Translations under genes and position numbers: made by a program | In this document: in pieces, positions 17,285-49,350 of the stretch | Position numbering within the stretch: the stretch's first letter is position 1 | Layout: the number at the start of each line of letters is the position of its first letter | The notes under the pieces: model-generated | What the model was told of the DNA's origin: nothing | What the model saw: only the letters and a program-made list of their open reading frames with translations | The model's database searches: none | Assembly (NCBI GenBank): GCA_003024785.1 | Contig: PUQB01000242.1 | Span: 1 to 64,000, forward strand | Direction: 5' to 3' | Source: Selaginella tamariscina | Taxonomy: Eukaryota; Streptophyta; Lycopodiopsida; Selaginellales; Selaginellaceae | Length of the DNA: 64,000 nt

Positions 17285-18140
17285 AATACAACTAGTGGCG
17301 GGATTAATCACGCCACCCCTTTCCCGCCTCCACCGACTCCCTCTAACAAGAAAGAGTCGACGGGATTAATCTCGCCACCGACTCCCTCTAATAAGAAGAG
17401 TTGACGGGATTAATCCGCTGCTGACTCCCTCCAACAAGGAAGAGTCGCGGGATTAATCCGCCACCGACTCCCTCCGACAAGAAAGAGCCGGCAAGATTAA
17501 TCATGCCGCCACTCTTTCTGACTAGGAAGAGCCGATGGGATTAATCCTGCCGCCAACTCCCCCAATGAGGAAGAGTTGGCGGGATTAATCCCGCCAACGG
17601 CTCTTCCCCATTGGAGAGAGGCGGCATGATTAATTTCATCGTCGACTCCTTTCGATGAGGAAGAGTCGGCGGGATTAATCCCGCCCACAACTCTCACCGA
17701 CGGGGAATAGGTGGCGTGATTAATCCCGCCCACAACTCTCTTCGAAACTATGATTTTAGAGAGATCTCGAGGGGGTGGCGGGATTAATCTCGCCAATGCT
17801 TTTCTGCATCCTAAATTGATCGGCAAGATAAATCTTACTCACAAATCTTTAAAACAGGGAAGTGGTGGCGAGATTAATCCCGCCACCCCTTCTCTGCCTT
17901 CTAAAATGGTTGGCGGGATTAATCTCGCTGACAACTCTTTTTAATAAATTCTGTTAACTCTTCATCATTTCAGAGAGTTATCGACAGGAATAATCCCGCC
18001 GCTCTTTTTAAAAAGCGGAGAAGCATTAACCGGATTAATCATGCTATGGCTTCTATGTTTCAAAGAGTTGGTGGCAGGATTAATCCCACCACCTCTTCTA
18101 AGAAGCAAAAAAGAAATGGCTGAATTAATCCTGTTGCCCC
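17285..18140. repeat. Palindrome array 1 (about 18 degraded copies of GGCGGGATTAATCCCGCC)
   Basis: About every 40-50 bp a variant of the 18-bp palindrome occurs. Well-preserved copies lie at about 17,578 and 17,667, and degraded forms such as GGCAAGATTAATCATGCC at about 17,490. The linkers frequently read GACTCCCTCYRACAAGRAAGAG, so the linker is itself bounded by GACTC/GAGTC. The array lies about 130 bp upstream of the DUF7869 copy A coding start, on the same side as array 2 does for copy B. Confidence 0.9.
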
Positions 18141-20395
18141 GCTAAGTGGGAATATTAAGTAAAAAAGATGTTTAAACGGGATAAATCCCTAATGGAATAT
18201 AATGTAATCCTAATGAATTCCTAAACCCCTAAATTCTAATTTAAAAAAAGAATGTAAGAAAGTGAATCTTTATAAGTTTTTAAATTTATTTATAATACTT
18301 ATAAACAACACTAAAGGTGTCATGCTTTCCTATAAACAATAGCACTCAATTTAATGTCAGTCCGAAGGTGAACACCTATCAATAAAAAAAAAAAATCTGA
18401 AGAATGAAAATTATAAAAATGAAGAATCCCTTGCTGGAGAAAGAACCAAATCTGAATTTAAGTGGGAAATTAAATGCATTTTTTAAATTTATATGTCAGA
18501 CCGACAATATATATGTTAGAAATTCAAAAATTTGAGAAAATAAAAAAATAAAAAAATTTAAGATGAGTTGACACAGACACTCTAACATATATATTCTCTA
18601 TTCCAATGAGTTTTATAAATTGTATTTAATGTGATTCAAGCTGTTTAATATTACGAAATTTTAATAATTATTCTACATTCTTATTATTCCAGTATATATT
18701 ATTAAATATATATTATAAGTATATACTTATACAATAAAAAAAATTGATAATTATTACGTATCATTTAAAATATATTCATAATGTGTTTATTAATATTATT
18801 TCTTAATTACTCGAGTAATTAATTTACATTTCTTTATATTAATGGGATATTCTTTATTATTTTCTTATTCCAAGAATATTCTAATATTAAACCTGATTAT
18901 CATAATTAAATTAGTTTATATTCTTAATGATTTTAGTAATTATTCTACATTTGTATATATTAATGGATTTTCTCAATTAATTTCTTATTATTTTAAGAAT
19001 ATTGCATGTCAAACCTTATTATCAATATTAAATTAATATTATTATTAAAACTATATATGACTATATATTAGATAAAATGATATTTATTATGTATAATTTA
19101 AAATATGTTATAGTGTGTATATTAATATCATTCTCTTAATTACTCGAGTATTTAATCTATATTTCTTTTTATTAATGGGATATTCTTTATTATTTTCTTA
19201 TTATTCTAAGAATATTCCAAAATTAAACATGATTATCATAATTAATTTAGTTAGCTTTGTATTTATGATTTAGAGTTTAAAACTCAAACCAAACATTTAT
19301 AATTACACACACTCTACACTGGGACTTACATATGTTTAGTGTTTAGAGTAAATTTATATTAAATAATTAAAAAAATGTGTATGGATTTAGTTTATATTAG
19401 TATAAAGATTTTATACTAATATATATATTATGTGCTATGATTGCTTTCAAATGTGTTTTAATATCATTATGTCATTTTAGTTAAAATTGAGTAAAATTCA
19501 AATATATACATATAATTTTAAATTATGAGCAAATTATAATTTGCATTTTTAAAAATGAAGTTTTTTAAATTAATTGACAAATCAGTAAAATGATTTGTGA
19601 TTTTATTTATCTACTTGACTATCAACAATTCTTTATGCGTGTTTTCTTATGTATTTATATACGAATAATAGACTTTTTATACAAATATTAAAATTTAATA
19701 ATAAATTATTTGCATTAGATTTAAACCCTAAACCAAACTCGAGAAATATGTTGCTTCTTTATTGAAAACATCCTGTTCAAACACATGTATGATCCACAGT
19801 CCATGTATATGTAATATATTGAATTTACACATGTAATATATGTATGTCTGTGTATACACGTATATAGGTATATATGTGTACTAATATATGCAAATTAATT
19901 TTTTAACACTCTCTCTCTTCTCTCATACATACACACCATGCATGATCCATAATATGTATTTGATGTGACAATATTATGTACTATGTATGTATATCTGTGT
20001 GTATAATATTATATGTGTGTATATATGTATTGCTACACATGAAAATTTAACACTCTCATGGACACACACATGTTAAACCCCTGCATGATTTATATTTTTA
20101 GGGTGTATGTGATGCACCCACACACCCACACACGCACACAAATTTAAAATTATGTAATATAATGAAAAATATTCGTTTAGGGTCAATATATATTTTATTC
20201 TTTTTAGGGTTTACGTATATTCTTAAAAGGTAAGGTTAATATATATTTTATTCCTTTTAGGATTCAAGTATTTTCTTAGGGTTTGAAGAAGAAAGGCGGC
20301 GGCAGTGGTGGAATGTGAGAGCAGCTGTGCCATAGATTAATAGATCTCTTTCTTAGAAGGCAAGGCGGTGCAAAAAGGCGCGGCGATGCAGTAGG
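18141..20395. other. AT-rich spacer of duplicated unit, copy A
   Basis: This segment parallels 44,291-46,680: both begin with AATATTAAGT then TTTAAACGGGATAAATCCC, share repeated AATGGGATATTCTTTATTATT blocks, and end with GTTTAGGGT...TATTCTTA. No gene is supported. The homology stops near 20,290, and the retroelement array follows at 20,396. Confidence 0.6.
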
Positions 20396-20975
20396 TGTCA
20401 AGCCACGATCCAGGAACCATGAAGAGAACGGATTCCAAGGACAGGAATGCTTGACTTAGGAGTAGGACCAAGAGCAGGACAGGAACTAGGAATAGGAATA
20501 GGACGGATCTAGGAGCAAAACAGGATCAGGATAGGATCCGGGAGCAAGACAGGAAGTGCAGGATAGGATCCAGGAACAAGACAGGAGCAGGCAGGATCCA
20601 GGAGCAGGACAGGATCCAGGAGCAGGACAGAAAAGGAGCGAGACAGGAGCAGGACAGGAAACAAGACAAGAACAAGACAAGACGAGATTGATCGTAGTAA
20701 GACTGGTGTTGATAGTAACTGATTGTACAACAATTAGGTCGGAGCTTTTATGCTCACAACTCCAAGAGCTAATCTAGGCATGAGTGCTAAAAGTGGTTGC
20801 ATGCATGCAAAGTGACTGCATGCATGCAGAGGCTAAGATGAGTCCACATGTCCCTTATATCCTGTGGCATATCCTGTAGGAATATCCTGTCCGGAATCCT
20901 GTAGGAATATCCTGTAGGAAATCCTGCAACCATATCCTATATCCGGAATCCTGTATCCTGTATCGGGTCGTGACA
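20396..20975 (-). repeat. Left LTR (3' LTR of gypsy copy 1)
   Basis: The 580-bp LTR is bounded by TGTCA...TGACA. Next to its inner edge lies GCACCTCCTCCCTAAAGACG, which on the minus strand is a purine-rich polypurine tract directly before the LTR. A purine-rich stretch of GGAGCAGGACAGGA variants and a stretch of ATCCTGTAGGAAT variants are low-complexity parts of the LTR. Confidence 0.85.
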
Positions 20976-20989
20976 GCACCTCCTCCCTA

Positions 20990-23900
20990 AAGACGAGTTC
21001 CACGAGTCTTGGGACCTGGTTTAGCAGGATAATGCCGATGGAAGGCAGCAACCTTGGAAGAAGCATGGAGTAAGTTGGATGCAGGTTCCCAAGTGCGATC
21101 AGTAGGCAAATAACCTTTCCAATCCACCAAGTATTGGAGTTGGCGGTGATGAAGACGATGGCTGCAACTTCGTACTCAGGTTCAGTGTCAATGACCACAG
21201 GAGGGAGGAGAAGAAACACGACCGGGAAGAGAAGAAGGATGATACGGCTCCAACAAGGAGGTGTGAAACACAGGATGAAGTTTCACCGTGGATGGTAACT
21301 CGAGTCGGAAAGCTACAGGATTTACCTCGCCAATCCTGTAAGGGCCCAATCGTTGAAAATCCAACTTAGAAGAAGGCCTGTTGGTGCGAATGTGTCGACG
21401 AAGAAGCCACACGAGATCACCAATCTTGTATGCAGGTGCCGGCTGACGGTGAGCATCAGCATGATGCTTGTATCGTTCCTGTGCCTGCTGAAGATGAACC
21501 TGGAGATCATCCTGTACCTGACGAAGATGCTGGAGACGATCCTGTACTGCAGGAGCGGAAGAAGGAGAAGCGGGAGGAGCAAAGTCAAAACGTGGATGGT
21601 GCCTGTAAGAGCAAAGAAAGGTGTCTGTCCTGTAGATGCGTGAACGGAGTTGTTGTAGGCAAACTCCGCCATTGGAAGAAGGTCCAACCAGTTGTCCTGC
21701 TGGTAACTGATGAAGCAACGAAGATACTGTTCCAAGGTCTGAATTGTGCGTTCGGACTGCCCATCAGTTTGCGGATGATATCCTGAAGAAAGATCCGCTT
21801 TAACCTGTAGACTCCGAAGAAGCTCTCGCCAAAACTTGGACATGAATTGTGGACCTCGATCGGAAACAATGCTCTCAGGAAGACCATGATGTCGGAACAC
21901 CTCACGGATCACCAACTCGGCAGTTGTCTGACCTGTAGCTGTCTTGTTGCAGGGTAGGAAATGAGCCTGCTTGGTGAAACGGTCAACCACCACAAGAACT
22001 GCATCGAATCCACGAGAAGGAGGAAGATCTGTGAGGAAATCCATAGAAATGGATCTCCAAGGAGCAGAAGGAACAGGAAGAGGACGAAGAAGACCAGAGG
22101 GTGCATGATGAGGCATCTTCGACCTGTTACAAGTGTCACAACTCCGTACAAACCTCTCCACAAAACCTCGCAACCCAGGCCACCAATAGTTGCGAGTCAC
22201 CAACTCCACTGTCTTGGCCACACCAAAATGTCCTGTAGCCGGGGTATCATGACAATCCTGTACCACACGAGTCCTGGAAATACCAACAGGAACGTACAGG
22301 AGACCTTCCCGGTACAGGAGTCCATCCTGTATGGTGAACAGGTTGTAGTCTGACGGGAACTGGAGGAAGAGGAACTTGCAACGTCAGGATGAATGTGTGA
22401 GAACACATTCTTTGCCAAGTCGTCTGTAGCCAACTGCGAACGGACGTCCTGTAGGAGTGTTGAATTTGCTGGAGCCTGATGAACCTGCAGTGCCGCAAGC
22501 CGGAATCGATCAGGACCCAACAACACTTGCCTTTGACAGTCAAATGCAGGATCGCCGGGCTTGGTGCAAGGTAAGAGCCTAGACAATGCGTCCGCCTTGC
22601 CATTCCGAAAACCGGGCCTGTAGACGATGACGAAGTCAAAACGTGATAGGAACTGCCCACCTAGCCTGTCGCCGACTGAGAACTCGAGCCTTTGAAAGTA
22701 CTCCAGGTTCTTGTGATCCGTAAGAACTTGTACAGGATGTGCAGCACCTTCCAGGAAATGCCGCCACTCCTAAACGAATCCACAATGGCCTTGAGTTCCT
22801 TGTCATGAATCTCGTAGTTGATCTCCGCCGACAGGAACTTACGAGAGTGGAAAGCTACAGGATGAAGCAACTTGTCCTCTCCAACTTGCGATAGATGGAT
22901 CCTACTGCAAAATCCGAGGCATCTGCTTCAATGAAGAAAGGATGAGAAGGGTCAGGATGTGCTAAAATTGGAGCTGTCGTGAAGACGTCCTTAGTGTTGT
23001 GAACGCGTGTTCCGCCTTGTCGGACCAAGAGAAAAGTCCTGTGCGCTTGGTGAGTTCTGTGAGTGGAAGTACACGCTTGGAGAAGTCCTGTATGAACCGC
23101 CTGTAGAAGTTTGCAAAGCCAAGGAAACATTGTACATCTCGTACCGACTTGGGCCTCTCCCACTCCACGATGGTCTTCACCTTGTGCATGTCCATGGAAA
23201 CGCCAGCAGGAGAGACGATGTAGCCCAAGAACTCCACCGAATCCCTATCGAAAAAACACTTCTCCAACTTCGCGTACAGGCCATGCTCGCGAAGCCGCTC
23301 TAGAACTAGTCGTACATGCTTGTCATGTGCCGCCTGGTCCTTGGAGAAAATCAAAATGTCGTCGAGGTAGATCACCACAAACTGGTCCAAGAAGTCACGA
23401 AAATGTCGTTCACCATGTGTTGGAACACAGCTGGGGCATTGGTAAGGCCGAAAGGCATTACCGTGTACTCAAAATGTCCATACCTTGTACGAAAGGCAGT
23501 CTTCCACTCATCGCCGGACGAATCCGTACAAGGTTGTAGGCCCCTCGTAAGTCGATCTTCGTGAACACCTTTGCTCCTCGCAGCCGATCGAGAAGTTCCG
23601 GGATCAATGGCAACGGGTACCGATTCCGAATGGTGACTTGATTCAAACCCCTGTAGTCCACAACCAAACGTAAACTCCCATCCTTCTTCTTGACAAAGAA
23701 GATAGGCTCCTGCAGGGGACTTTGAGTGACGAATGAAGCCGGATGCCAAGTTGTCCTCGATGTACTGACGAAGAACCTCCAACTCTGTGGGTGACAATGC
23801 ATAAATCGGTCCGAATGGTGGAGTCTTTCCTTCCGCAAGATCAATAGGACAGTCGTAGGACCTGTGAACAGGAAGAACTGCAGCCTTGTGTTTGTCAAAA

Positions 23901-25907
23901 ATCCTTAAAGGCATGATACTTGGATGGTAGGAAGAAGGAGGAGAAAGAAGAAGGAGTAGGAGAAGGAGATTGAAAATAGGAGAGTCGGATACAGGAAAGG
24001 TAGAGGACGTAGGAGTTACTTGAAAGGCAAAGAGGTGGAAAGGAGCAGGATCAGTGGTGTTTAATGCATGGTAGTGGTAAGAACTCGGAGAGGAGAAGGA
24101 GGGAGCTGTGACTGAAAAAGAGGAAGGATCTTGGGGGTGGAACAGAAGCAGGGTAACAGAAAGGCAGGATTGGAAAAAACCTGTGTGGTGTTGATGAGTG
24201 TACAGGATTGGAAGAATCCTGTACAGGAGTCCGTGGTTGCGCAGGAGTGGGAAAAGCCTGCGAATGTGCTGACGAATCAACAGGAGGTGGATCCTGTTGA
24301 GGAGGAACCTTCGACACTGATACAGGATTGGAAGAACCCTGTACAGGACACCGCAAACTTACAGGAGTGGAGAGAGCCTGCGGATGTGCTGAGGAACTGA
24401 CATGAGGTGAATCCTGTCGAGGAGGAGTCTTCAACACTGGTACAGGAACAGGCACGGTCAATCCTGTAGCTTGTACTGCCTCAGATACTAAGGATGTATC
24501 CTGCACACAGGAAGGTACAGGATTGATCCTAGCTGTCGGAGAGGAAAACGTGAGCGTCCTAGACCTCCAGTCGATCTGCGGATTTGCAACAACGAACCAT
24601 GGCATGCCCAAAATGATGGGAGTCGACCGAGTCTTGATCAAGTTGAAGGAAATTGAACAGTTGAATGTGCCATAACTGCAGGAGAGAGGTTCGGTAGCAT
24701 GGGTAACTGCGCCAGAAGCAATCAGACGCCCATCGGCCACCTCTACAGGAACTGCACGCTTCAACTTCACCACCGAAATGCCATGTTGAGTTGCAAACGT
24801 GTCATCCATGAAGCATGCATTTGCACCAGTGTCTAACAAGGCAAACTCCATGAGCTCTCGATTATTAAGATGAATGTGTACAGGAAACTTAAGTGATGGG
24901 ATGGTATGAGCAGCACCAATGGAGCCTGCACCTACGTCCAACTTCGCGGCTCCTAGACGAAGTGGACATTGGAGTTTTCCGACTGAACTTCAGCTTCAAC
25001 TTCACGCGTCTTGAAGTTCCTGGCTTTAATAGGACAATCTGCCACCTTGTGTCCTGCTCCACCACAATACAAGCACAGGTTCTCACTGCGACGACGTTGC
25101 TTCTCAGCAGCGGAAAGAGAGCCACGCTTGGATTTCTCAACCTCCATAGGAACTACTCCAGAAGGTGGTGCAGAACATGTATCACAGCTGCAGGATTGGT
25201 TTGCAAACTGCTACGATCTTTCCTGACACGCTCGAACAAACGGTTGTCGCAACGAACAGTTTGCATGATCTCCGCTAATGTTTGGGCATCCGTAACGTAA
25301 GGAGAAGGTCCTTCACTCATCCCTAACCCAAAACGAAGTTCGATCAATGCAGTCTCGTCCCATGGAATGTTCGTGCAAAGTTGCTGAAATTCGGATGCAT
25401 AGACGGAAGCTGGTCGGATCCTTGAGTGAGCTTCCTAACTTCGTGCATGCAGAACAGGTACTTATCAGGATCTCCAAAACAGGCTTCAAAGCAGCCACGA
25501 AACCTTCGAAGTCTTCCATCAATGGTCGTCACGCTCCAGCAAGGGGGCAACCCAAGCCCGTGGAGATCCACTTAGTAAGGATGCCAAAAGACCCACCTTT
25601 GAGCATCAGTCGAGTAGCGCCGTGGTTGCATACGGATCAAGAGCCGGATCTGATTCAGGAAACCTTGGAAATCGGCACGATTGCCACTGAACTTCTCTGG
25701 CATGCTAACCTTCGGCTCCGAAGAAAAGTTGATGAAGAGGAACCACCGATGCCTGGGAGAGAGCCTGCGCAGCAGCCTTGGAGGATGCATCAGCAGCTGC
25801 ATGTGCCGCAGTGGTGGAACCTTGCAGGTCGGTGACCACTTGGCGCAAAGTGGCCAGCTCATGAAGTAACATTTGGTGCTCGCTTGAAAGCGCTCAAAAT
25901 CAGCCAT
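20990..25907 (-). pseudogene. Gypsy copy 1 gag-pol with C-terminal chromodomain, frameshifted
   Basis: Gag begins at the ATG at 25,907 (MADFERFQ). A CX2CX4HX4C zinc knuckle, CLYCGGAGHKVADC, lies near 25,030-25,075. The protease LLDTGANACF is near 24,815-24,845. Reverse transcriptase motifs include [11 protein letters not shown] (about 23,640) and YLDDILIFS (about 23,350). RNase H has [13 protein letters not shown] (about 22,910-22,940). Integrase spans 21,585-22,266, with CDTCNRSK and the core D/D/E context VSDRGPQF and YHPQTDGQSER. A chromodomain-like end, EPEYEV then LVDWKGYLPTDRTWEPA, is split by a frameshift at 21,040-21,190. The domain order identifies a chromovirus. Multiple frame changes mean it is not intact. 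A proline/serine-rich stretch separates protease from reverse transcriptase. Confidence 0.85.
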
Positions 25908-31950: not shown

Positions 31951-31954
31951 ATTA

Positions 31955-33377: not shown

Positions 33378-34499
33378 AATCTCCTCTCGCCACCTTGTTT
33401 TAGGCCAGAAAGGGTGTTACAATTCTGTACTTGTGACAGTAGGCCCTTCCAACTCTCGAACAACAGTCTCCCAATAGTCGACCACATGCTTATATAGTTC
33501 TGAGTAACCAGTTGCCTTATCAGAATTCTTTGGCATCGATTTTTGAACCCATGCCACATATTTTTTGATGCCATCAATAATAACCTCTTGTTCCTTGAGC
33601 TGGGCACTCAATGGAATAGGGTCTGGTTGTCCTTCTAGGAGAAGTGGCTTTCCATCCTCTCCAGTTTTGAAGAGCATTAACCCCTCTTTCGGTAACCACT
33701 TCTGCTCTGATGGCCGTAACTTGTATTGCATAATAGGTATACCATCTCGTATGGAGAAAAAGAATTGTAGCGGCACAAGGTGACCAACTAAAGAATCACT
33801 CCCTTCTTTTATATACTCCTTGAGAAATTTTTTGAAGTCTGGCACCTCAGTCACAAGCAAAGCACAACTTTTTTTGGAGATGCAATTTTCAAAAAGATTC
33901 ATCATATGCGGTAAAGTAAGTGCACTTGTCCTTTTTGTAGAGTTGGAGACCTTGCTGAAGAACGCATCAATATCTTCATGAGTGTGACCAACCATAAGGA
34001 AACTGAGCGTGATTGTTTCCAACACACCTTTGGCAACAAGCATTGACAAGTATGCTAGCACATATCTAGAAAATAAAAGTAAGTATGAGCTTGAGAAACC
34101 CTTAAGTAAAATGATTTACCTATTTTTGTTCTCGCCTGCACAATTATCCATTTGTAAAAGCAAATGACAAGGAAGCTTATTTGATGTTGAGGACACATGT
34201 ACACTATTTGAGCTAGATCCCTCCACTGAACCAGAACTCTCAACAGGGCCATTTATTTTCTGTGCAGGCTGTTGACAATGCCTCTCATATTCCCAAGTAG
34301 CCTCAAGTGCAGACGTGTTCATGAGAGCATTATGTAAAGGTTGAAGGTGTTGTTTCTTCACTTTGAGATCACTGATAGGACTTGTCTGTGAGTGGGCTTC
34401 AAGGTTTCTGAAACACATGGCTAATGACCCAATAGTGAAATTGGAGTCGCTAGACCAATGTGGAAGTGAAAAGTGTCCATATGACTCACAACCGTGTCC

Positions 34500-34505
34500 A
34501 TGTGT
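34500..34505. repeat. Left target-site duplication of the large-LTR element
   Basis: ATGTGT here equals 41,766-41,771. The duplication is 6 bp, or 5 bp plus a T shared with the LTR edge. Confidence 0.75.
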
Positions 34506-36273
34506 TGTCAGAGTTTTAACCCAAAGGGCCAACACGTGGCAACACGTGGCTGCCAGTGGCCATTTGGCGTCATCACCCTGTGTGAGCAACGCTAAGTTTC
34601 CCAGAACAACCCCAACGACCCCTAGGGTTAGACTCTAATGCCCAAGTGGACAGGAGACTTAGGGTTTAGCCTAAGTCTCCCTAGAATGTCTGCCCCCAGA
34701 ACCCTTGAGGGATAACCCTAGTTGACTTAGGGTTTAGCCTAAGTCTCCCTAGAGTGTCTGCCCCAAAACCCTTGAGGGATAACCCTAGTTGACTTAGGGT
34801 CTTGCCCTAGAAGACCTAGACAGGCTCATGCCCTAACCCCCATCAAGGAGACGTGTGTTCCACACATACCCCTGGACAGAGCTAAGGCATCGTCACTTAC
34901 CCCTTGAGGAATCACCCTCATCCGGGAGTACAACCCCTTTAGGGCGACAAGGGGTACCCTGAACCACGACTAACCCCTAAGGGTTTGAGTGGCCAAGTTA
35001 TACCCTAGACCTAGGGCTAGTACTTAGTGAGGACACGAGTGTGCGCCGTAGGCGGACACGAGTGTTCTGCTAAGCAAACTCCCTAAGGCTAGGTTTGGGA
35101 TAACCCTAAGCACATGACCTTGCGAGTGCCTCACGAAAGGGCTCCTGCTAACAGTTAGGTTGTTCAACCCTTGAATTCCAAGGAGAACACTCCCCTAGCC
35201 AAGTGTGCCAAAGCACACCTAGTTATGAGACCTAACCTCCCTTGAGCGGATGCCCAAGGCTTAGCACCCTAGTGCAAGCACAAGCATGTCTGTTTGCTAA
35301 GTATCCAACCCCTTGGCGACAAGCCCATGACATAACCCCAAAGGGCGTGCCTCGGCGTTGTACCATGTGACGTTTAGCCCAGTGTCACATCTCCATGTGA
35401 CACTGCCTTCCCCGATGTGGGCTATCATGCCATAGCCCTTAGATTCAAGAGTTGCACCAAGTGCCACAAACGTGGCTCCTAAATGCCAACTCTAGAACCC
35501 CTCAATGAACCCTCAGGAACTAAGGAACGTGAACCTGTCAAACAAGATCCCACGCCCACAGTTGGACAAGGACACGGATGTGCCTTGCTTGGCCTGAGTG
35601 CTACACCTAGCTTGACGTGGAGGAGGAGGCTGGAGACAAGCCTCAACCTCTGCCTCTTGGAACGTGCATTCCGACAAGACCTCCCAGGCATGGATTCGCC
35701 AACGTTAAGGGTAAGCTACCCCGAAGGTGGGACGTACCCCTGGCATCTGGAAGTTAGGGCGGCACAACAGAGGGTTGTGCCTTGACGACACAAGCTAGAG
35801 CTTGCACCGGGAGAAGAGTAACGAGCTCAGTCATGAACCCAGGAACCCTCACTCCTATACTACCTTATTTATGTGACAGAGCCCCCCCCCCTGTTTTCCT
35901 GTTTACATAAGTGGGCTAGCACTGAAATCTCATTCCCAGAGGGAACATACTTGGTGAGTTATCCATCGACCCCTAAACCCTAACCTGTCAAACCTGGGGT
36001 ATTTCTAAGCATATCCGACATGCCGAACTCACCGGAACTAGCCATTAATCCAACCGGGACACGGAAAACCAAGGTAAGAGTTTTCTAGATGGAAGTGCTA
36101 GCTTCGCCCAGAGTTTCTTGCAAATACCTAATGACACCGGCCGGACCATCACTAGATATCCAAGTGCACTAAGCGGGCCTGTTTCTTCTACACCTAGGGC
36201 TTATCAACATAGTACAGTAGGTAACAACAGTCAACGTCCAAAGTAAAGGGGAGTCATAGTAAAAACTATGACA
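34506..36273 (-). repeat. Left LTR of the large-LTR element
   Basis: It begins TGTCAGAGTTTTAACCC and ends AAAACTATGACA. It contains duplicated TTAGGGTTTAGCCTAAGTCTC blocks at 34,660-34,790 and a C-rich run at 35,882-35,892. Confidence 0.85.
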
Positions 36274-39200
36274 CACTCCCCGCCTTTGAAAATGTCAACG
36301 TCCTCGTTGACGTCCAACTCCAAGACTAGATAATGTTAGAGAAAAACCAAAACTAACATATCACTCTATGCGGAGTCAGCCAAAAGTTCACATAAGTTTT
36401 ATTACCCCCTTGCATTACGCGAAACCAAGTACTTCAGAACCGTCGTTCACTAGTTATAAACCTAGCTGCCGGAGGCACCACCTGCGACATGAAGTCACTT
36501 GGAGACCTTTTGCACGTCTGCAAAGTCTGTCACCCGACGCACACAACACAATGGTTAATTTCTTTACTTAACTAGAATTTATATTGGAGGCCTCTAGTTA
36601 GTGTTGTTGCCGGCCCCTTGGTTAACAAGAAATAAAGACTTGCTTTATTCCTTAATATTAAATGCTGTTGACGACCTCTGTCGTCTAACACAAACAAGCA
36701 CTTCTCAAATGCTTGACCAAACACCTTCGCATTTCTTTTGATTTTCCAATGGTCCCACATCTCCATGTTACGATATTATAGCTTACATCTCTGCATCCCT
36801 CGGTGTTCTCATTACCCCTTTTCATAAGGGTCTGCTACTATACCTATCTCTCATTAGTATATAGCTACGCCAGACTAAGTATGAGACTTTTATCGGAATC
36901 AAGCTCTTTTCCGATTAAGAGTACAAGTCGTAAAACCCTGTTCTTTGTAAACATGTCAATCTGGCCAGAGGCGATCACAGAGGCGCATGGCTGTACACAT
37001 GTATACAACAAGGTCTTGCCAATCTACCAATGCCATTCACTTGGTGTGTTATTAACATAAATTTATTCCCGATAGGAATCAAATTCAGTCAAATGCGACC
37101 AAGTGTGATAGCCTTACCATTTGTCCTTCGCAACCATCTTTGTACTCTTTCATAACACCGACCAGTTCAGGGACCAGATAAGCTAACATACCTTTCTTAC
37201 AAAAATGTGGAAACCAGGAAATTCAACCCATCTCTAGTGCCTCAATCGACAACTTTAGATAACACTCTCTTAATTGTCACTTCATTGTACTCATTCCCAA
37301 AGAGCACATCATACTAGATGCCGTTCAATAATTCCTAACTCTTATCTACTAAGTTCAAAATACCAATTTTAAAACTTAGTTTCCACGATAAGAGTCTCTC
37401 TGAATTCGAATACTGCACGCCTCCATAACATTATATTTATTTCCAACTCTTAAATTGATTTCGTAAATGTTTCTCAACACTATACCGAAGTATAGCATTT
37501 TCACTAATTGAAGCAATAGTGTTTTGATAAACATCTTTTAAACTAATCCTTATTCTATAAATAGTCGCAATTTCGATATTGATACTCTTGAATGGATAAT
37601 GATCGTTTTAACGTTCAAATCCTAAGCTTATCAACTAGTTGTTATACTAGTGGATATAAACTTACAATCATATCAATTTATCAAAATGCTACAACTAATT
37701 ATAGATATGGTCTTAGTTTACATGAACCGAACTTCAATTTTGAGATGGAAATATAATGTTATGACAGTATTTGAGGAACTTTTTCAGAGACTAAGAGGAA
37801 TCATGAACTAGTGTCTGGTTCATCTAATTGATTTAGTAAGATATCAACCTCCACATAAATGTTATCATAACACTGAAGTGTTATATCAACTTCATGTTTT
37901 AGTCATACCTTATAATTCAATAGATCTCCCCAAACATGAATAAAATATCTAGTTCAGTACATTGAACTAAGATACATTATTCACTCTAGACACCTAGCAA
38001 TCCAGAAAGTACATTGCCCCTCAAGCAATGTATTGAGAAATGCCATTTCTCAACTAACTTGAAAACACGTTTCAAGTTATAACACTAAGGTAGTGCCTTA
38101 CCAAAGTGTCAGACTCAAATCCACTTGAGTCTTTATATTATATGATTATGGCCACCTCATGTGATCATAACCAAGTTTATATTGAGCGCTCCAAACTCAA
38201 TATTGAAGAGATATCATACATACTTTGACAAGTCATTTATAACAATCTTGAAAAGATTGTCACAAATTCTGCCAAAGTTTAGAATATAAATATCTCAACA
38301 GATGAGGTGATAGGAAACCTCATATTCTCGAACCGGATATTGGACGAACCTTGAACTACAATCATCAAGAAGGGACACCATCTTCTTGAGCTAATCCCGC
38401 TACACAATATCATACTTACAAGAATATTGAACCAACTCAAGGAACACCATCAAACCTTGAGATAGAACTAACAACTAACCCAAGGAATACAATCAAACCT
38501 TGAGTCAAGAATAGTTCTATTTTTCAATATTCCGAAAGATTGAAGATACATACTTTATTTGTTCTTTAAGTGCCCACATTTGCGACCATGATGCAGAGTC
38601 AAGAAACCGTCTTTTGAATAATCGTATTCGACTCTAAAATGAAATTGATATTGAAAATCAATATCAACTTTAATTCTCATCGAACACCGACTCTCTGAGG
38701 AGGTACATGCACTTAAACCTCCAAAAATATCCGACTAACTTGCTCATTTGAACCAACATAAGTTATCAAACTTAGCAAGTTTCCTTACTTAGTCATAAAC
38801 AAAGTGAAAATCCCAAATCATGCTCTTCTTAACCAAGGAATCACCCTTGTTCAAGAGCTTATCCCCACATTGCAAACAACGTTACAATTTCAAGATTAAA
38901 GAGTTAAAATGAAAATGCACAAGTGTGCGCCGAACGCCTTCACTATGCAAGTCCTTATTACTCAGTAAACTGAAAATGTAAACGTATGTTTCCAACATTA
39001 CTCTTTCTGATAGATCATGCCATCTATCCCAAAAGTTGCATTGATAGGGATGCAACATTAAATCCGTCTACTGCCAAAATATATTATTCTATCCATTCTT
39101 AGATCCCACATGAGATAACTTCATAATCAAGTTAGTTGAGTAGCTAACTTGAATACAAAGTGCGCGCTTACAACTAACTAAGGTTTCAAGTTGTACTTTG

Positions 39201-39996
39201 TTCAAATTAGGACTTGAACTTAGTAAACTATTTCACCTAATGTTACTTGCAGCTAGCGTCATCAAAATATTGCGAACATCGGACAATACTTTGATTACAT
39301 TGGATCTTCGAAAACTTAACATATTCATCATATGTTAATATTTGACATTCTTGTATTATAAGTTCATCACCATAGTCTGCTTCTAGAGTTACACTCTCGG
39401 AAACATTAATTTTATTTTATGTCAAAATGTAGTGTTCATTCTTATGTTTGAATATGCCCCTTCTCCCGAAGTCAAAGATGCACTTCTGAACATAAGTCTT
39501 TCCCCGTTTGAACACTATTGCTGAAACGATATTGAATCTTGACCTAAGCCAAAACTCAATGGACATGTCTGTTTCAAATCATGTGTTATCCCAAATTCAA
39601 ACACCTTAAAGAAAAAGAAAAATTTTCAATAATGTGTAGAATTAGGATATCACAAGGCCCACTTCACAAGACTTAGTTTGTAAGCCAGAACAAACTAACA
39701 TGCCTTGTCTTGTGGAAGTAATGGTAAAGTAACCTGGACAACCATAAGGTAAAATAACCTGGCATACAACTTGGAAGTTGCTTCCAAGTGCTACCTTCTA
39801 AGTCCATAACCCACACCCACTTATGAAGTAGGTGTACTCTGAAGAGTTATAGATCTCAGGACCAACTCTCCACGCAGAATTCAGACATTAGCCGAAAGTG
39901 ATAGAGTACTTCAAGAATTTAGAACTAACTAAACCCTAAAATACACTACACTTTAGGTAGTCCTACTGACCGCAGAGAATAGGCTCCGATACCAAT
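36274..39996. other. Non-coding internal region of the large-LTR element
   Basis: No gag or pol motif is seen on either strand in this 3.7-kb AT-rich stretch. Open frames at 36,368-37,060 are short and featureless. The minus-strand primer-binding site is at about 39,982-39,995. Confidence 0.75.
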
Positions 39997-41765
39997 TGTC
40001 AGAGTTTTAACCCAAAGGGCCAACACGTGGCAACACGTGGCTGCCAGTGGCCATTTGGCGTCATCACCCTGTGTGAGCAACGCTAAGTTTCCCAGAACAA
40101 CCCCAACGACCCCTAGGGTTAGACTCTAATGCCCAAGTGGACAGGAGACTTAGGGTTTAGCCTAAGTCTCCCTAGAATGTCTGCCCCCAGAACCCTTGAG
40201 GGATAACCCTAGTTGACTTAGGGTTTAGCCTAAGTCTCCCTAGAGTGTCTACCCCCAAAACCCTTGAGGGATAACCCTAGTTGACTTAGGGTCTTGCCCT
40301 AGAAGACCTAGACAGGCTCATGCCCTAACCCCCATCAAGGAGACGTGTGTTCCACACATACCCCTGACAGAGCTAAGGCATCGTCACTTACCCCTTGAGG
40401 AATCACCCTCATCCGGGAGTACAACCCCTTTAGGGCGACAAGGGGTACCCTGAACCACGACTAACCCCTAAGGGTTTGAGTGGCCAAGTTATACCCTAGA
40501 CCTAGGGCTAGTACTTAGTGAGGACACGAGTGTGCGCCGTAGGCGGACACGAGTGTTCTGCTAAGCAAACTCCCTAAGGCTAGGTTTGGGATAACCCTAA
40601 GCACATGACCTTGCGAGTGCCTCACGAAAGGGCTCTGCTAACATTAGGTTGTTCAACCCTTGAATTCCAAGGAGAACACTCCCCTAGCCAAGTGTGCCAA
40701 AGCACACCTAGTTATGAGACCTAACCTCCCTTGAGCGGATGCCCAAGGCTTAGCACCCTAGTGCAAGCACAAGCATGTCTGTTTGCTAAAGTATCCAACC
40801 CCTTGGCGACAAGCCCATGACATAACCCCAAAGGGCGTGCCTCAGGCGTTGTACCATGTGACGTTTAGCCCAGTGTCACATCTCCATGTGACACTGCCTT
40901 CCCCGATGTGGGCTATCATGCCATAGCCCTTAGATTCAAGAGTTGCACCAAGTGCCACAAACGTGGCTCCTAAATGCCAACTCTAGAACCCCTCAATGAA
41001 CCCTCAGGAACTAGGAACGTGAACCTGTCAAACAAGATCCCACGCCCACAGTTGGACAAGGACACGGATGTGCCTTGCTTGGCCGTGTGCTACACCTAGC
41101 TTGACGTGGAGGAGGAGGCTGGAGACAAGCCTCAACCTCTGCCTCTTGGAACGTGCATTCCGACAAGACCTCCCAGGCATGGATTCGCCAACGTTAAGGG
41201 TAAGCTACCCCGAAGGTGGGACGTACCCCTGGCATCTGGAAGTTAGGGCGGCACAACAGAGGGTTGTGCCTTGACACAGCTAGAGCTTGCACCGGGAGAA
41301 GAGTAACGAGCTCAGTCATGAACCCAGGAACCCTCACTCCTATATACTACCTTATTTATGTGACAGAGGCCCCCCCCCTGTTTTCCTGTTTACATAAGTG
41401 GGCTAGCACTGAAATCTCATTCCCAGAGGGAACATACTTGGTGAGTTATCCATCGACCCCTAAACCCTAACCTGTCAAACCTGGGGGTATTTCTAAGCAT
41501 ATCCGACATGCCGAACTCACCGGAACTAGCCATTAATCCAACCGGGACACGGAAAACCAAGGTAAGAGTTTTCTAGATGGAAGTGCTAGCTTCGCCCAGA
41601 GTTTCTTGCAAATACCTAATGACACCCGGCCGGACCATCACTAGATATCCAAGTGCACTAAGCGGGCCTGTTTCTTCTACACCTAGGGCTTATCAACATA
41701 GTACAGTAGGTAACAACAGTCAACGTCCAAAGTAAAGGGTTGAGTCATAGTAAAAAACTATGACA
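39997..41765 (-). repeat. Right LTR of the large-LTR element
   Basis: It matches 34,506-36,273 almost base for base, with small indels. It is followed directly by the ATGTGT duplication and by the resumed DUF7869 coding sequence. Confidence 0.85.
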
Positions 41766-43459
41766 ATGTGTTAGCACACACTGTCAATGAAATCGGAAGT
41801 TTCATGACATTTCCAAGGCACTTTGGTGTTGCAAAGAGCTTTGGAATGCTGGTCTTGAATGATCCATCTTGTCATGGATCAAGCACAGGTACTCTGATGG
41901 GCGTGACACAAAAAGCATGCGGTGTGCATAGTACTGAGACCGGCAAGTTTGTTGTGCAATCATGTGGGCCTCCATCTTCTTTTGAATGGCAGTGATCTCC
42001 ACCAAGGTTTTTGCACAAGCCTCTGCAGCCTTCAATGATGTACAAGTGTTACACTTGGAAAAGCTAGAGTGTTTTGCAATCTCCACATCCTTAAAATGAG
42101 TATTCCATATGTTGTTGAAGGTACCAGTGCAGATTGCTTGGAGCCCCATCAAACTGAGGCACTTGTTCACATGTTCACACAGCTTCAATTGAGTGTAGAT
42201 TGAAGGCAAAACCTTGAGATTTTCCCCTGACCCTACATTTGTGGTTCGGCATTTGTGAGGCATCTTGTCCTGCATTTTGCTTCCACAAAAGCCTTGAGTA
42301 TCTCTATGGCTGCCATGATGTGAGAGCGGGTTTTGACCAAGCGAGTGTTTCCATGTACTGAGGTTCGCGCTCCATCTAGCCACTCATCCTCCGACGGTAG
42401 AACGTGGTCTTTGGGATCCCGTATATACTGTACCAAGCTTTGAAAGCAGATGGCCACCTTATTAAATACCATGGATGTACTCTGATAACCTGTGTCCGAG
42501 GCCATTCCATCAATACACCCAGTTAGTGCAGCATATACAAACTCATGCCTTTGCTTTTGTGAGCATACGAAAGACATGTCTACATTGGGTAATTTCATTC
42601 TGGTCTGCCATCTGACAACACTTCTTCTTGCAACAGTCAATCGTGGAATGCTCGTAACACTTTCGAAAGATGTAGGATCCATCTTACCCTCTTGCTGAAA
42701 CTTGCAAGGGAAGATCTACAACCCATGAATCGCCTTTTTCTTACAATAGGACCAATGCAAGGAACCTCTTCAAATATGAGTTGTTCTTCCGGGTTGTTAT
42801 TATTGAAATCCAACCAGAATATGTTGAACCGTCTTGCCGTCTTAATTCAAATGTTCGCCACCTCACGGGGATCCAGGATACAATGTGCCATTAGGTGAAA
42901 CTTCTGTCACAACTACACCCACGAAGTCGGACCCTAGTTTCTCTTCTGACACTGCTTTCATTGGATTTATAGCTGTGATGATGCCTCTTCCGACTCAATC
43001 TCACGAAGAAAGAGAATCACCTCATTCATCACAGCAGGCAAGCCATCATCTGGTAAACTCGTGCTACTATTTGTTTGTGACTCTGCATATTCTGTGCACT
43101 TAACTTCATCCAAATTCCACAATACAGGAGAACCCTCCTCAAATTCCATTCCCAGAACCTCAACATGCTTGTAAATGGTGTTCACCCATACGTACACACA
43201 AGATCCTTGGGCAATATTGTGACATGATGCATTATTATCTCGAACTTCCACAGTTCCAGTGCCAACTATCTCGTTGTTCCGAAGAAGACATACTTTATTC
43301 CAGTAAAAACATATTGTCCTGCACATAAATAATTGTATTATTTATGATATCTGTTTATGCAATATTTCTAAGAAATCTGAATTACGGTTACTTAATAATA
43401 TGCATATGCAATAATACATAATTATGTTTAGAGATAATATCTCATGTTTGATTAATACA

Positions 43460-44290
43460 ACTGATGGGCGGGATTAATCCCGCCCACGAATCCCTCCGAC
43501 GAGGAACGTCGGGGGATTAATCCCGCCGCCGACTCAACCCCTTCGGAGAGAGTCCGGGATTAATCCCGCCTTGGACTCCCTCCGACAAGGAAGAGGCGGC
43601 GGGATTAATCCCGCCGCCTCTTTCCTCCTCGGGGGAGTCCGCGGATTAATCCATCTCTAGGGAGTCCGGCGGGATTAGGGAGTCCGGCGGGATTAATCCC
43701 GCCGCCGACTCAACCCCTTCGGAGAGAGTCGGCGGGATTAATCCCGCCTTGGACTCCCTCCGACAAGGAAGAGCCGGCGGGATTAATCCCGCCGCCTCTT
43801 CCTCCTCGGGGGGAGTCCGGCGGGATTAATCCCGCCGACTCTCTCCGGCGAGGATGAGTCGGCGGGATTAATCCCGCCTTGGACTCCCCCGAGGAGGAAG
43901 AGGCGGCGGGATTAATCCCACCCACAATTTTTACGACGGGGAATGGGTGGCGGGATTAAACCCGCACATAACTCTCTCCAAAACTATGATTTCAAAGAGA
44001 TCTCGGGATAAATCCTATCCCCAAATCCTTAAAACAGGGATGTGGTGGCGAGATTAATCCCGCCACCCCTTCCCTGCCTCCTAAAATGGTTGGCGGGATT
44101 AATCCCGCCGACAACTCTTTCTAATAAATTCTGGTAACTCTTCATCAGTTGAGAAGGTTATCGGCGGGATTAATCCCGCCACTCTTTTTCAGTGGCGGAG
44201 AAGCATTGCCCGAGAGATGGTGGCGGGATTAATCCCGCCACCTCTTCGAAGAGGCGAAAAAGAAATGGCCGGATTAATCCCGCCGCCCCG
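43460..44290. repeat. Palindrome array 2 (about 19 copies of GGCGGGATTAATCCCGCC)
   Basis: Many copies are perfect 18-bp palindromes, for example near 43,603, 43,736, 43,778, 43,822, 43,862, 44,095 and 44,164. Spacing is about 40-45 bp, with one locally duplicated stretch at 43,665-43,690. Linkers such as GACTCCCTCCGACAAGGAAGAG and GACTCAACCCCTTCGGAGAGAGTC are bounded by GACTC/GAGTC, so linker and core both fold back on themselves. Copies are closer to the consensus than in array 1. Confidence 0.93.
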
Positions 44291-46680
44291 GTTAACCTAG
44301 AATATTAAGTTAAAAGGATATTTAAACGGGATAAATCCCTAACGGAATATATTATAATCCTAATGCATTCCTAAACCCCTAAATTGTAATTTTAAGAGAG
44401 AATGTAAGAGAGTGAATCTTTATAAGTATTTTTAAATTTGTTTATAATACTTACTTGTAAACAGCACTGAAGGCGCCGTGCTTTCCTATAAAGAATAGCA
44501 CCCAATTTAATCTCGCTCCTGAGATGATCACTATGAAGAAAAAAGAAGATCTAAAGAGTGAAAAATACAGAAATGAAGAAACCCTTGCCGGAGAAAGAAC
44601 CAGATCTGAATTTGAGTGGGAAATTAAATGCATTTTCAAATTTACATGTCAGACCGACAATACATATGTCAGAAATTCAAATTTTTTAAAAAGAACAGAA
44701 AATAAAATTTAAGATGAGTTGACACAAATATCCGACACTCTGACATATATACTCTCCAGTTCCAATGAGTATTTTAAAATTGCATTTAATGTTATTCAAG
44801 TGATTCAAGCTGTTTAATATTACGAAATTTTAGACTATATTTTACATTCTTAGTATTGAAGTATATTTATATTATATATATATAAATATATACTTATACA
44901 ATAAATAAATTGATATATTATTATGTATCATTTAAAATATATTCATAGTCTGTTTATTATTTATTTTCTTAATTACTCGAGTATTTAATTTTCATTTCCT
45001 AGTATCAATGGGATATTCTTTATTATTTTATTAATATTTGAAGAATATTCTAATATTAAACCTGATTATCATAATTAAATTAGTCTTGTTCTTAATTATT
45101 GCAGTAATTATTCTACATTTGTATATATTAATGGGATTTTCTCAATTAATTTATTATTATTTCAAGAATATTCTTGTGTTAAACCTTATTATCAATATTA
45201 AATTAATATATATTATTAAAATTATATATGACTATATATTAGATAAAATAATGTTATTATGTATAATTTAAAATATGTTCATAGTGTGTATATTAATATC
45301 ATTTCCTTAATTACTTGAGTAATTAATCTTCTTTATATTAATGGGATATTCTTTATTATTTTCTTATTATTCCAAGAATATTCCAATATTAAACATGATT
45401 ATGATAATTAATTTAGTTAATTATTTGAGTACTTAATTTACATTTGTATATATTAATGGGATTTTCTCAATTAATTTTTATTATTTCAAGAATATTTCAA
45501 TGTTAAACCTTTTATCAATATTAAATTAATATATATTATTAAAACTATATATGGCTATATATTAGATAAAATCATATATTATTATGTATAATTTAAAATA
45601 TGTTCATAGTGTGTTTATTAATATTATTTTCTTAATTATTCGATGTTTGTTTTGCACACATATATAAACACAATCATAAATTTACACACGCATTACAAGA
45701 ACTTACAAAAACACATATGCACATATGTAATATTTATATTAAGCTTGTTGGGAGCAAACCGTAAACCCTAAACCCTAAACCCTGTGTATACATGTGTGTA
45801 CAAAAATAATTTTTCAACACTCTCTCTTCACACCATGCATGATCCATCCTAAACCCTAAACCCTAATATGTAACACAATGAATTTACTCATGTAATATGT
45901 ATGTATGTCTGTGTGTATACACGTGTGTATGTATATATGTGTACTCTGTATGTATATATGTGTACTTTCTGTCTTCTCTCATACATACACACCATGCATG
46001 ATCCATGTTAATATGTATTGTGTCTCTTCTCTCAAACATACACACCATGCATGATCTATAATATGTACTCGGTCTCTCAAATATTATGTACTAATATGTA
46101 TGTATGTCTGTGTATATAATACACACCATGCATGATCCATAATATGTACTGTCTCTCTTCTCTCATATACTATGTATGTATATCTGTGTAATAATATGTG
46201 TAAGTATATATGTGTACTAATATATGCAATGTGTACAAAAATAATTTTTCAACACTCTCTCTTCTCTCATACATACACACCATGCATGATCCATCCTAAA
46301 TCCAAAAACCCTAAACCCTAAACCCATGTAATATGTATGTATGTCTGTGTGTATATACGTGTGTATGTATATATTATGTGTATTAATATATGCAATGTGT
46401 ATGTATGTATTGATACACATGAACTTTAACACTCTCATGGACATACACATGTTAAATCCCTGCATGATTTATATTTTGGGGTGTATGTGATACACCCACG
46501 CACACGCACGCGCTAATAATATAATGAAAGAATATTCGTTTAGGGCGAATCTATATTTTATTCTTTTTAGGGTTTAAGTATATTCTCAGAAGGAATATTC
46601 TATTAGGGTTAATATATATATTTAATTCCTTTAGGGTTTAGGTATATTCTTAGGGTTTCAAGAGGCGCGGCTGTGCACAC
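44291..46680. other. AT-rich spacer of duplicated unit, copy B, with telomere-like tracts
   Basis: The spacer matches 18,141-20,290. It holds repeated AATGGGATATTCTTTATTATT blocks (45,005-45,500) and then a TATGTATGTCTGTGTGTATA-rich part with short CCCTAAA runs at about 45,769, 45,850 and 46,307. No gene is supported. Confidence 0.6.
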
Positions 46681-46689
46681 AGGTGAGAT

Positions 46690-46692
46690 CTG

Positions 46693-46729
<37 letters not shown>

Positions 46730-46796
46730 ATATGTATAGGAGTGTGTGTATAATTTTATTTATTAGTTTTATCTCTCGCACACACACGCACACTGC

Positions 46797-46880
<84 letters not shown>

Positions 46881-47606
46881 CAATGCATATTAACAAATAG
46901 TATACAACACTAGTTTATATATATGCTTATATATTCATATGGGTTATATATATACACACATATATATATGTGTGTGTTTATCTGTATAATTTTATTTATT
47001 TATTAGTTTTATCTCTCGCACACACACGCACACTCCTGTGTATATATATGTGTGTGTGTGTTTGTTTATCTGTATGATTTTATTTGTTTCGCTCACACAC
47101 GCATACACACAATATACATATACACATATATATACCTATACAATATATACATACATATATTATGTGTACTAGTATCTATATAATTTTTTTTATTGATCTA
47201 TCTCTCCCACACACACGCACACTGCTTTACATATATAATATATATAATCAATGCATATTAACAAATAGTATACAACACTAGTTATATATATGCTTATATA
47301 TTCACAGACTCTCTATATCTATATACACACATATATATGTGTGTTTTATCTGTATAATTTTATTTATTTATTAGTTTTATCTTTCGCACACACATGCACA
47401 CTCCTGTGTATATATATGTGTGTGTGTGTGTTTGTTTATCTGTATGATTTTATTTGTTTTCGCTCACACGCATACACACAATATACATATACACACATAT
47501 ATATACCTATGTACACACATATATTATTGTGTACCAGTACTGTATAATTTTATTTATTTATCTATCTCTTGCACACACACGTACACTCCTATACATACAT
47601 ACATAC

Positions 47607-47664
<58 letters not shown>

Positions 47665-47735
47665 TATGTGTGTGTTTTATCTGTATAATTTTTTTATTTA
47701 TTAATTTTATCTCTTGCACACACGCTAAGCCCCTC
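46690..47735. repeat. Microsatellite-rich tandem repeat block
   Basis: (GT)n and (CA)n runs (46,691-46,714; 46,801-46,852) and (TA)n runs (46,853-46,878; 47,610-47,654) are embedded in a larger unit. That unit contains CTGTATAATTTTATTTATT and CTCGCACACACACGCACAC and recurs four to five times (about 46,745, 46,980, 47,180, 47,350 and 47,545). Open frames here are repeat translations. Confidence 0.85.
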
Positions 47736-49350
47736 GAGCGGCGTTATTAATCCCGCCGCTATAGGTTTATGGCCTCGGCGGCGGGATTAATCCCGCCGCT
47801 ATATGGTTGGGGCCATGGCGGCGGGATTAATCCGCCGCCGAGGCCCTTCACGCAGGCTTATGGGCGGCGGGATTAATCCCGCCGCTCTAGGACAAACCGA
47901 AGAGCGGCGGGATTAATCCCGCCGCCCATGGCCTGCGTGAGGGCCTCGGCGGCGGGATTAATCCCGCCGCTCACCCATGCCCTGCGCGGAATGCGGCGGG
48001 ATTTATCTCGCCGGCAATGGCCTGTGTGAAGGCCCTAATGGCCGGGATTAATCCCGGCGGATTCCGCGCAGGCATTTACAGGGATGGGCGGGCGGGATTA
48101 ATCCCGCCGCTCATGAGGCTAACCGAAGAGCCTGCATGAAAGATCCTGCACGGAAGGCTAACCGAAGAGCCTGCATGACATGTCCTGCGCGTAAGGCGGC
48201 GGGATTAATCCTGCTGACCAGGGAATTCACGCAAGACATGAACGGCGGGATTAATCCCGCCCCACGCTCATGCCCTTCGCGGAGGGCGGCGGGATTAATT
48301 TCCGCCGCTCAGGCACTTCCGCAGGATATAACGGCGGATTAATCCCGCCCCCACCCATCCCTGTTCAAAATGCCGCAGCCAATATATATGTGTAAGCGCA
48401 TGATTTACGAAAGGGCGGCGGGATTACTCTCCGAACCTTCATTGCCCGGTGGCGGGATTAATCCCGCACCCTTCTTTTTTTCCTCCATTGGTATGTTGAA
48501 TCAATCCCGACTAACTCTGTCTGAGACGGAGAAGGTTTACAAAATACCAATGGAGGGAACTGAGAAGGGTGGTGGGATTAATTTCACCATCCCTTACATG
48601 GTGGGCGGGATTAATCCCGCCGCGTACGCATGCCCTGCGCGGAATCGGGCGGGATTTATCCCGCCGCCATTGGCCTGCCTGAAGGGCCTAGGCGGCGGGA
48701 TTAATTCCGCAAGATTTCGCACAGGGCATTGGCGTTCGGCGGGATTAATCCGCCGACTAAGGCCCGAGTGAAGGGCATGGGAGGCAGGATTAATCCCGCC
48801 GGACGCCAATTCCTGCGCAGAATCGGGCGGGATTTATCCCGCCGCCATTGGCCTGTCTGAAGTGCCTAGGCGGCGGGATTAATCCTGCCCGATTCCGCGC
48901 AGGGAATTGGCGTCCGGCAGGATTAATCCCGCCGCATAGGGACCGAGTGAAGGCCTTGGGCGCGGGATTAATCCCGCCAAGTCTTCAATGCCTGTTGGAG
49001 GAATGAATCCCGCCACCCTTCGCTTTTTTCTCCATTGGTGAGTCGGACCAATCCTAAACGTTTCTGTCTGAGACGTAGAAGGTTTTCAACATACCAATGG
49101 AGAGAATTGGGAAGGGTGGGGAAATTCATTTAACCATCCCTTACATGGTGGGCGAGATTAATCCCGCCCCTTTCTGGAGTCACTGAAGGGGTGTGAGAAA
49201 TAAATCCTGCCCATTCTCTCTGAGACCGAGAAGGGTGGCAAGATTAATTCCGCACTCCCGTTCAAGGCCTCCAGAAAGGTGGCGAGATTAATCCCGCCCA
49301 CTCTTTCAGGAGGCATTGAAGGGGTGGCGAAATTAATCCCGCCGCACCTT
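47736..49350. repeat. Palindrome array 3 (about 31 copies of GGCGGGATTAATCCCGCC)
   Basis: The core recurs about every 37-50 bp from 47,745 to 49,345, usually extended as GGCGGCGGGATTAATCCCGCCGC. The linkers differ from those of arrays 1 and 2: they are variants of GGCCTGCGTGAAGGCC and CATGCCCTGCGCGGAAT, and several occur in both orientations. Two TCCATTGGTAT hairpins interrupt the array. The array ends about 530 bp before the start codon of the ParB-like gene at 49,883. Confidence 0.93.

Follow-up and report, generated by a model that had tools for sequence, protein, structure and literature searches.

Palindromic arrays within a DNA transposon

The DNA analysed here (the window, 64,000 nucleotides) covers positions 1 to 64,000 of contig PUQB01000242.1 of Selaginella tamariscina, which is C552 among the 1,391 contigs of the 300.7-Mb genome. 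It holds two copies, A and B, of a DNA transposon that carries a gene for a DUF7869 protein, a second gene of no known family and, between them, two arrays of an 18-bp palindromic core, GGCGGGATTAATCCCGCC, on either side of an AT-rich spacer (Table 1). The three places at which a first-pass annotation of the window had put such arrays were borne out: 54 sites match the core with ≤3 mismatches against 0.02 expected from shuffled sequence, so its presence cannot be due to chance, and one of the 54 lies outside the arrays. The accompanying estimate of roughly 68 copies at about 45-bp spacing stood in part. When the rule is relaxed to ≤3 mismatches in the inner 12 bp, arrays 1, 2 and 3 contain 15, 18 and 31 cores, 64 in total, spaced mostly 40–47 bp apart, but there are longer gaps as well, many of about 90 bp, and 19 of the 64 cores are exact. 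The central ATTAAT is the most constant stretch of the core. Comparing the window with itself showed that 15,772–19,253 and 41,935–45,419 are copies of one segment (83% identical), so that arrays 1 and 2 are a single array seen twice and a count of three independent arrays is ruled out.

Counted genome-wide, as the first-pass annotation had proposed, the exact core occurs at 27,128 sites and its reversed control at 0. Inspection at the level of loci covered the first 100 listed sites (C1:8,634–2,083,358), the window and five more arrays (L058–L062), and a recount recovered all 100 listed sites in arrays of the fetched loci. Ninety-five sit in arrays within copies of the same transposon (E1, L026, L027, E2, E3, E4a, E4b, E5, E7), four in E6, a relative that has diverged but shares the left end, and one in an array fragment beside E7 that has spacer and array similarity only. 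The suspected tie of the core to particular genes is therefore real, with all 100 in a DUF7869-bearing transposon family; what a plain description as arrays had overlooked is that they are parts of a transposon. Scattered sites associated with host genes were rejected as an explanation on the strength of these 100 cores, the other 27,028 not having been inspected individually. A viral origin was rejected as well, as IMG/VR contained one exact site, no paired cores and no DUF7869 relatives (prokaryote contigs were not scanned).

The borders of the element were defined by comparing the window with loci on C1. Its inverted ends are about 27 bp long and begin with ATGCA (left ATGCAAGTTGTAACTAAAATGGGCATG, right ATGCACGTTGTAACTAAAGTGGGCATG); 13 of the 15 ends found in the fetched loci have 0–1 mismatches and two have 4, and the scan missed one further end, the right one of E4a, owing to a one-base length change. 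Inverted repeats at the constant ends of dispersed copies mark the element as a terminal inverted repeat (TIR) DNA transposon. Six fetched copies, from five independent insertions, measure 13,556–14,798 bp from end to end, E4a and E4b being one insertion duplicated along with its flanks. In L016–L019 (C1:895001–935000), two element copies about 18.6 kb apart have identical flanks and represent a segmental duplication. Two independent insertions have 4-bp target duplications, ATAA at E4 and TTAT at E5; E1 has 5 bp (ATATA) in AT-rich flanks, E3 has 3/4, and E7, with a damaged right end, has none. On this thin evidence the target duplication is apparently 4 bp. At C182:14400–19000 (L025), a 4-kb coreless right-end piece abuts a second right end in the same orientation, as a tandem or nested truncated copy.

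Six near-complete copies and window copy B agree in structure, in their ends and in the order of their parts, which runs from the left end through the DUF7869 gene (minus strand), left array (array L), AT-rich spacer, right array (array R), second gene and phosphatase open reading frame (ORF) to the right end. In the six, the arrays begin about 3.8 kb from the left end, are separated by 2,963–3,619 bp and stop about 5 kb short of the right end. From the DUF7869 start codon it is generally about 150 bp upstream to the first core (154 bp in E7), and in the window about 540 bp separate the end of array 3 from the inferred start codon of the second gene downstream.

The family is abundant. A 59-bp right-end pattern has 645 + 639 = 1,284 genome matches and a 37-bp left-array-start pattern 809 + 749 = 1,558 (≤3 mismatches each), which would put the total at about 18–22 Mb if most copies were complete, and many are not. 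Among the 30 best-scoring DUF7869 loci, 13 share an identical 195-aa exon-2 segment (300 matches; 150 of 4,249 candidates scored). For the second gene, 134 of 5,787 candidate matches to the first exon were scored, at 94–100%, and 27 of these, the window included, tie for the top score at 100% identity. Such identity in both genes points to recent amplification. The arrays belong to the interior of a TIR DNA transposon that has lately reached high copy number, and lie between its gene blocks, where they would act as cis-elements.

Cores, linkers and array turnover

Within main-type arrays the core is kept better than the linkers, as had been claimed. Mean pairwise identity in arrays 1, 2 and 3 was 0.783, 0.938 and 0.830 for cores and 0.617, 0.653 and 0.621 for the 3, 11 and 18 linkers that passed the filter, with a shuffled-linker baseline of ~0.57, in a comparison that is biased because cores were picked by their similarity to the canonical core. 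The further statement that linkers differ completely between arrays 1/2 and array 3 is correct for the young blocks; linkers of arrays 2 and 3 are barely more alike than shuffled ones (mean score 0.027 vs −0.010, sd 0.008). It fails at the fixed ends, where both kinds of array have linkers with homologues in a third array type, that of E6: E6 linkers are matched by H and K of array L (z 6.4 and 4.5) and by U and V of array R (z 6.5 and 5.8), and the remaining eight of the twelve tested reach z ≤2.9. These four oldest linkers have a mean identity of 0.69 to E6, and the cores next to them, again picked by similarity, 0.93 to the E6 core consensus. Given their likeness to E6, a single ~45-bp unit of two palindromes probably gave rise to both arrays, with the younger linkers drifting and the core staying as it was. 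L022 (C1:2054336 onward) and positions 1–2811 of L023 are diverged relatives of the arrays with near-palindromic linkers.

The block that stays fixed lies next to the spacer in array L, whose gene-side block varies, and next to the gene in array R. In the window arrays several linker types recur; they are arranged as a mosaic, and some are found in either orientation. In four of five recent copies the bases beside the array are identical (90/90), yet these copies contain 10, 11, 18 and 18 cores (the two longest at least 18, as the 921-bp stretches counted cut them); the fifth, with 10 cores, is offset by one base. Since a palindrome is both a direct and an inverted repeat, exchange between cores could delete, duplicate or flip a linker, and it is probably by this route that the arrays grow, shrink and turn their linkers around. 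Such exchange would also give a fresh supply of intact cores while old units decay.

By our own tally, CpG transitions are not in excess in the cores (66/1,456 vs 146/2,912 at other C/G sites) and are in excess in four coding blocks pooled (55/2,353 vs 242/16,766), with the phosphatase block running the opposite way (CpG 1/347 vs 21/2,842). This pattern is weakly compatible with unmethylated arrays. Decay of the arrays through methylation was discarded as an explanation, there being no clear CpG-transition signal in them.

Element proteins, related systems and the function of the arrays

The DUF7869 gene in the window matches PF25273 at 2.5e-26 and 3e-9. Its protein has 47 homologues, reaching 52% identity among metagenome sequences; the named ones come from a sea anemone, two bivalves and a liverwort, Riccia sorocarpa, which accounts for all seven named plant proteins (35–41% identity). 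Across 42 homologues Q351, D353, N354, K360, GHTH 388–391, D393 and D395 (P0001 numbering) are invariant, as is an I-H-D-K-M-D motif among 15 longer sequences. The invariant D and H/E/D motifs look like those of RNase-H-fold transposases, making the DUF7869 protein a candidate transposase, and a PDB-sequence profile search with it returned two chance-level matches and nothing else. At E ≤0.1, PF03017 (TNP1/EN/SPM) matches the N-terminus of 3 of 15 DUF7869 proteins (best 6.6e-4, 19.9 bits vs a cut-off of 21), and the family consensus matches PF03017 at 0.01 and Phage_Mu_Gp27 at 1.4e-4, under the latter's cut-off.

The label "ParB-like" in the first-pass annotation found no support from profiles: no ParB/Spo0J match appeared in Pfam (E ≤5), NCBIfam or PHROGs (E ≤1). 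The likeness to ParB–parS is that of a perfect palindrome near a gene with a short motif reminiscent of ParB. A ParB or methyltransferase reading of the second gene, based on that motif by eye, was rejected for want of profile, PDB or homologue support; furthermore, unlike ParB–parS, there are tens of sites per element here, in a multicopy eukaryotic transposon.

Arrays inside transposons have precedents. CACTA elements are defined by CACTA ends and a 3-bp target duplication. The element described here, unlike En/Spm and other members of that group, has ATGCA ends, target duplications that look like 4 bp rather than 3, and internal arrays at least ~3.8 kb from its ends; no CACTA transposase domain was among the Pfam matches. 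In PMC2613891, Tgmt* shows the CACTA ends and 3-bp duplication, and CACTA subterminal repeats, some of which form palindromes, are proposed as TNPA/TNP1 sites. Our element is similar to En/Spm in its clustered palindromic repeats, and some DUF7869 homologues have a weak likeness to PF03017 that stays under the cut-off.

Another parallel in layout is VANDAL21/Hiun, an Arabidopsis MULE with short motif repeats in non-coding DNA upstream of a transposase-like gene and high enrichment of the motif in one family. According to PMC5735166 and PMC10398659, its anti-silencing protein VANC21 has its binding sites, YAGTATTAY repeats, in introns and in the non-coding region ahead of the transposase gene, and the tandem repeats often gain or lose units between related copies. 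The motif of VANC21 there is 9 bp, non-palindromic and in one orientation, in contrast to an 18-bp palindrome here, and where VANDAL elements have motifs in introns (PMC5735166) the second-gene intron of our element has a single core and not an array. The termini and genes also look unrelated, and scanned element ORFs gave no Pfam match to the VANC domains (DUF1985, DUF287); any anti-silencing role here would be by analogy. A literature search, short of most subscription papers, found no description of this element, of DUF7869 or of this palindrome. The DNA transposon family is apparently undescribed, and arrays with a long palindromic core are apparently new within the known class of transposon-internal motif arrays.

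The best functional reading of the core, drawn by analogy, is a dimeric protein-binding site, and we favour it because the layout of the element resembles motif arrays at which transposon proteins act on their own element. On this view a dimer of some DNA-binding protein encoded by the element would recognise the palindrome. Candidates are the second protein and the DUF7869 protein, whose relatives include some with an N-terminus weakly like TNP1/En-Spm. With many copies bound, such a protein could control transcription of the element or its silencing by the host in cis, as TnpA does for Spm and VANC for VANDAL. TnpA activates and demethylates the Spm promoter. That the arrays are binding sites through which an element-encoded protein controls expression or silencing is, in our estimate, an even call. 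More tentatively, the element could represent an undescribed superfamily with DUF7869 as probable transposase and its own palindromic anti-silencing arrays, a third such system besides TnpA/Spm and VANC/VANDAL, in which a symmetric site lets segments flip and duplicate and so renews intact sites during linker turnover.

Several results, in addition to the selection bias noted above, weigh against a binding-site function. E6 conserves its unit from end to end (0.847 in cores, 0.818 in linkers), so the claim that these arrays behave unlike an ordinary minisatellite fails for E6-type arrays; conserved linkers are what the first-pass annotation had itself named as the contrary outcome. Its suggestion of selection on the core also found no backing in orthologous units from the fixed block of array L in nine copies, where the mismatch to consensus was 0.0688 (66/959) in cores, 0.0660 (111/1,683) in linkers and 0.0531 (48/904) in flank, counts that are raised by a foreign stretch in E1. 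As cores mutate as fast as linkers in these copies, nothing points to selection acting on single cores at present; each copy seems to decay neutrally, in the way transposons usually do, and any constraint would act on the lineage. A second relative, the L023 fragment, has GGCCGGATTAATCCGGCC as its core consensus instead, a sequence with 44 copies genome-wide, two of them in E6. Regarding the candidate binders, PF03017 is absent from the element's own protein and its matches, in 3 of 15 proteins only, are below the curated cut-off, while searches with the second protein gave nothing significant in Pfam, NCBIfam, PHROGs (best 0.041, unknown function) or PDB and no homologues among 5.8 billion proteins, in a search where candidates must share exact words.

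The main and serious rival, although we think it rather unlikely, is neutral expansion of palindromic units: a ~45-bp unit of core and self-complementary linker, prone to hairpins, would expand by slippage or template switching, and the arrays would hitch-hike in the transposon. Linker self-complementarity is strong in the E6 type (z 6.9 in E6, 6.5 in the L023 fragment), and lower in the window arrays (z 2.1–3.5). The conserved whole unit of E6, the equal mutation of orthologous cores and linkers and the mosaic, partly inverted order of linkers all fit such a process, and tandem ~45-bp units that vary in number and are locally homogenised are what an ordinary minisatellite would have. Unlike in a minisatellite, however, most main-type linkers are not conserved, some occur in both orientations, and the arrays occupy fixed places in a transposon, both being present in 6/6 near-complete fetched copies. 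Neutral expansion also sits poorly with two arrays of one element that share the same 18-mer consensus beside unrelated young linkers, and with a lone core that persists in an intron, identical in 7/7 fetched copies looked at (two of these being the duplicated E4). The 18-mer consensus is kept in E6 too, though its second gene is 22–24% diverged. Symmetric (compensatory) change of both half-sites found no general support, given that GGCCGGATTAATCCGGCC is so rare in the genome and that 2 of 43 two-mismatch main-family cores are symmetric.

It is improbable that the transposase binds the arrays to assemble a transposition complex, as with CACTA or hAT subterminal repeats, since the arrays are internal; the coreless right-end segment at C182, if mobile, would speak against it as well. 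Very unlikely, too, is a role for a host factor or for DNA structure, with the arrays acting as insulators or chromatin boundaries round the AT-rich spacer, as a replication origin or as a source of hairpin RNA. Such a role would account for palindromes in series, the paired placement of the arrays and the sharp GC contrast (about 0.57 in arrays 2 and 3 and 0.483 in array 1 vs 0.263 in the spacer), but all 100 listed cores are element-associated and no host site outside the element occurs among them. Binding of the palindrome by an element protein would make this transposon an independent example of an element with dense arrays of its own control sites and would give a first function-related clue to DUF7869; the 27,128 exact sites would then allow motif turnover, protein co-evolution and escape from silencing to be studied statistically in one genome.

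Features of the window copies

Table 1. Coordinates of element features in the window
Feature	Position	Strand	Remarks
Left terminal inverted repeat, copy A	12913..12939	+	4 mismatches to ATGCAAGTTGTAACTAAAATGGGCATG
Decayed DUF7869 gene, copy A	13872..16794	-	other repeat DNA interrupts at ~14,480-15,445
Array 1 (left array of copy A)	17297..18138		15 cores, 2 exact
AT-rich spacer, copy A	18139..20289		homologous to parts of 44,285-46,663; then Gypsy-type LTR sequence
DUF7869 gene, downstream part, copy B	33417..34505	-	exon 2 and end of exon 1, intron inferred; PF25273
LTR-type element in copy B DUF7869 gene	34505..41765		direct repeats 1.77 kb, 98.8% identical
DUF7869 gene, upstream part, copy B	41766..43341	-	homology to uninterrupted gene of other copies
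Array 2 (left array of copy B)	43467..44284		16-18 cores by criterion, 10 exact
AT-rich spacer between arrays 2 and 3	44285..47739		~325-bp repeat, AC/AT microsatellites
Array 3 (right array of copy B)	47740..49343		30-31 cores by criterion, 7 exact
Second element gene	49883..52788	+	no known family; introns inferred at ~51,088-51,148 and ~51,993-52,045
Single core in second-gene intron	51104..51121		2 mismatches
HAD/NIF-type phosphatase ORF	53386..54225	+	PF03031 at 1.6e-08; also in other copies
Right terminal inverted repeat, copy B	54487..54513	-	reverse complement reads ATGCACGTTGTAACTAAAGTGGGCATG, 0 mismatches

Copy A is truncated, and its DUF7869 gene was recognised by homology to 33,378–34,318 and to 41,935 onward, with an ORF at 16,099–16,794. 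In copy B the second gene has a frame break near 50,760; longer open frames are found in other genome copies than in those of the window. The LTR-type element within the DUF7869 gene of copy B is young, and other copies of the transposon are continuous at that point. The phosphatase ORF near the right end, which is CTD-phosphatase-like, may be a gene of host type that the element has captured, or may do work for the element itself. The likely leader of the second gene, beyond array 3, holds an inverted repeat, CTGTCCAGAGCTCACATTTGTG ... CACAAATGTGAGCTTCGGACAG (49465–49545).

Where the left part of copy B should go on there is a run of N (341 bp, 33037–33377). Another repeat occurs in two copies at 8297–9705 and 55129–56534 (89% and 86%) and has an ORF with a cysteine-rich end; it is MULE-like by eye, with no profile match. 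At 20396–31950, two related copies of Gypsy type follow each other head to tail (5.7 kb, 83%); tandem TATCCTGTAGGA-type repeats lie close to their ends.

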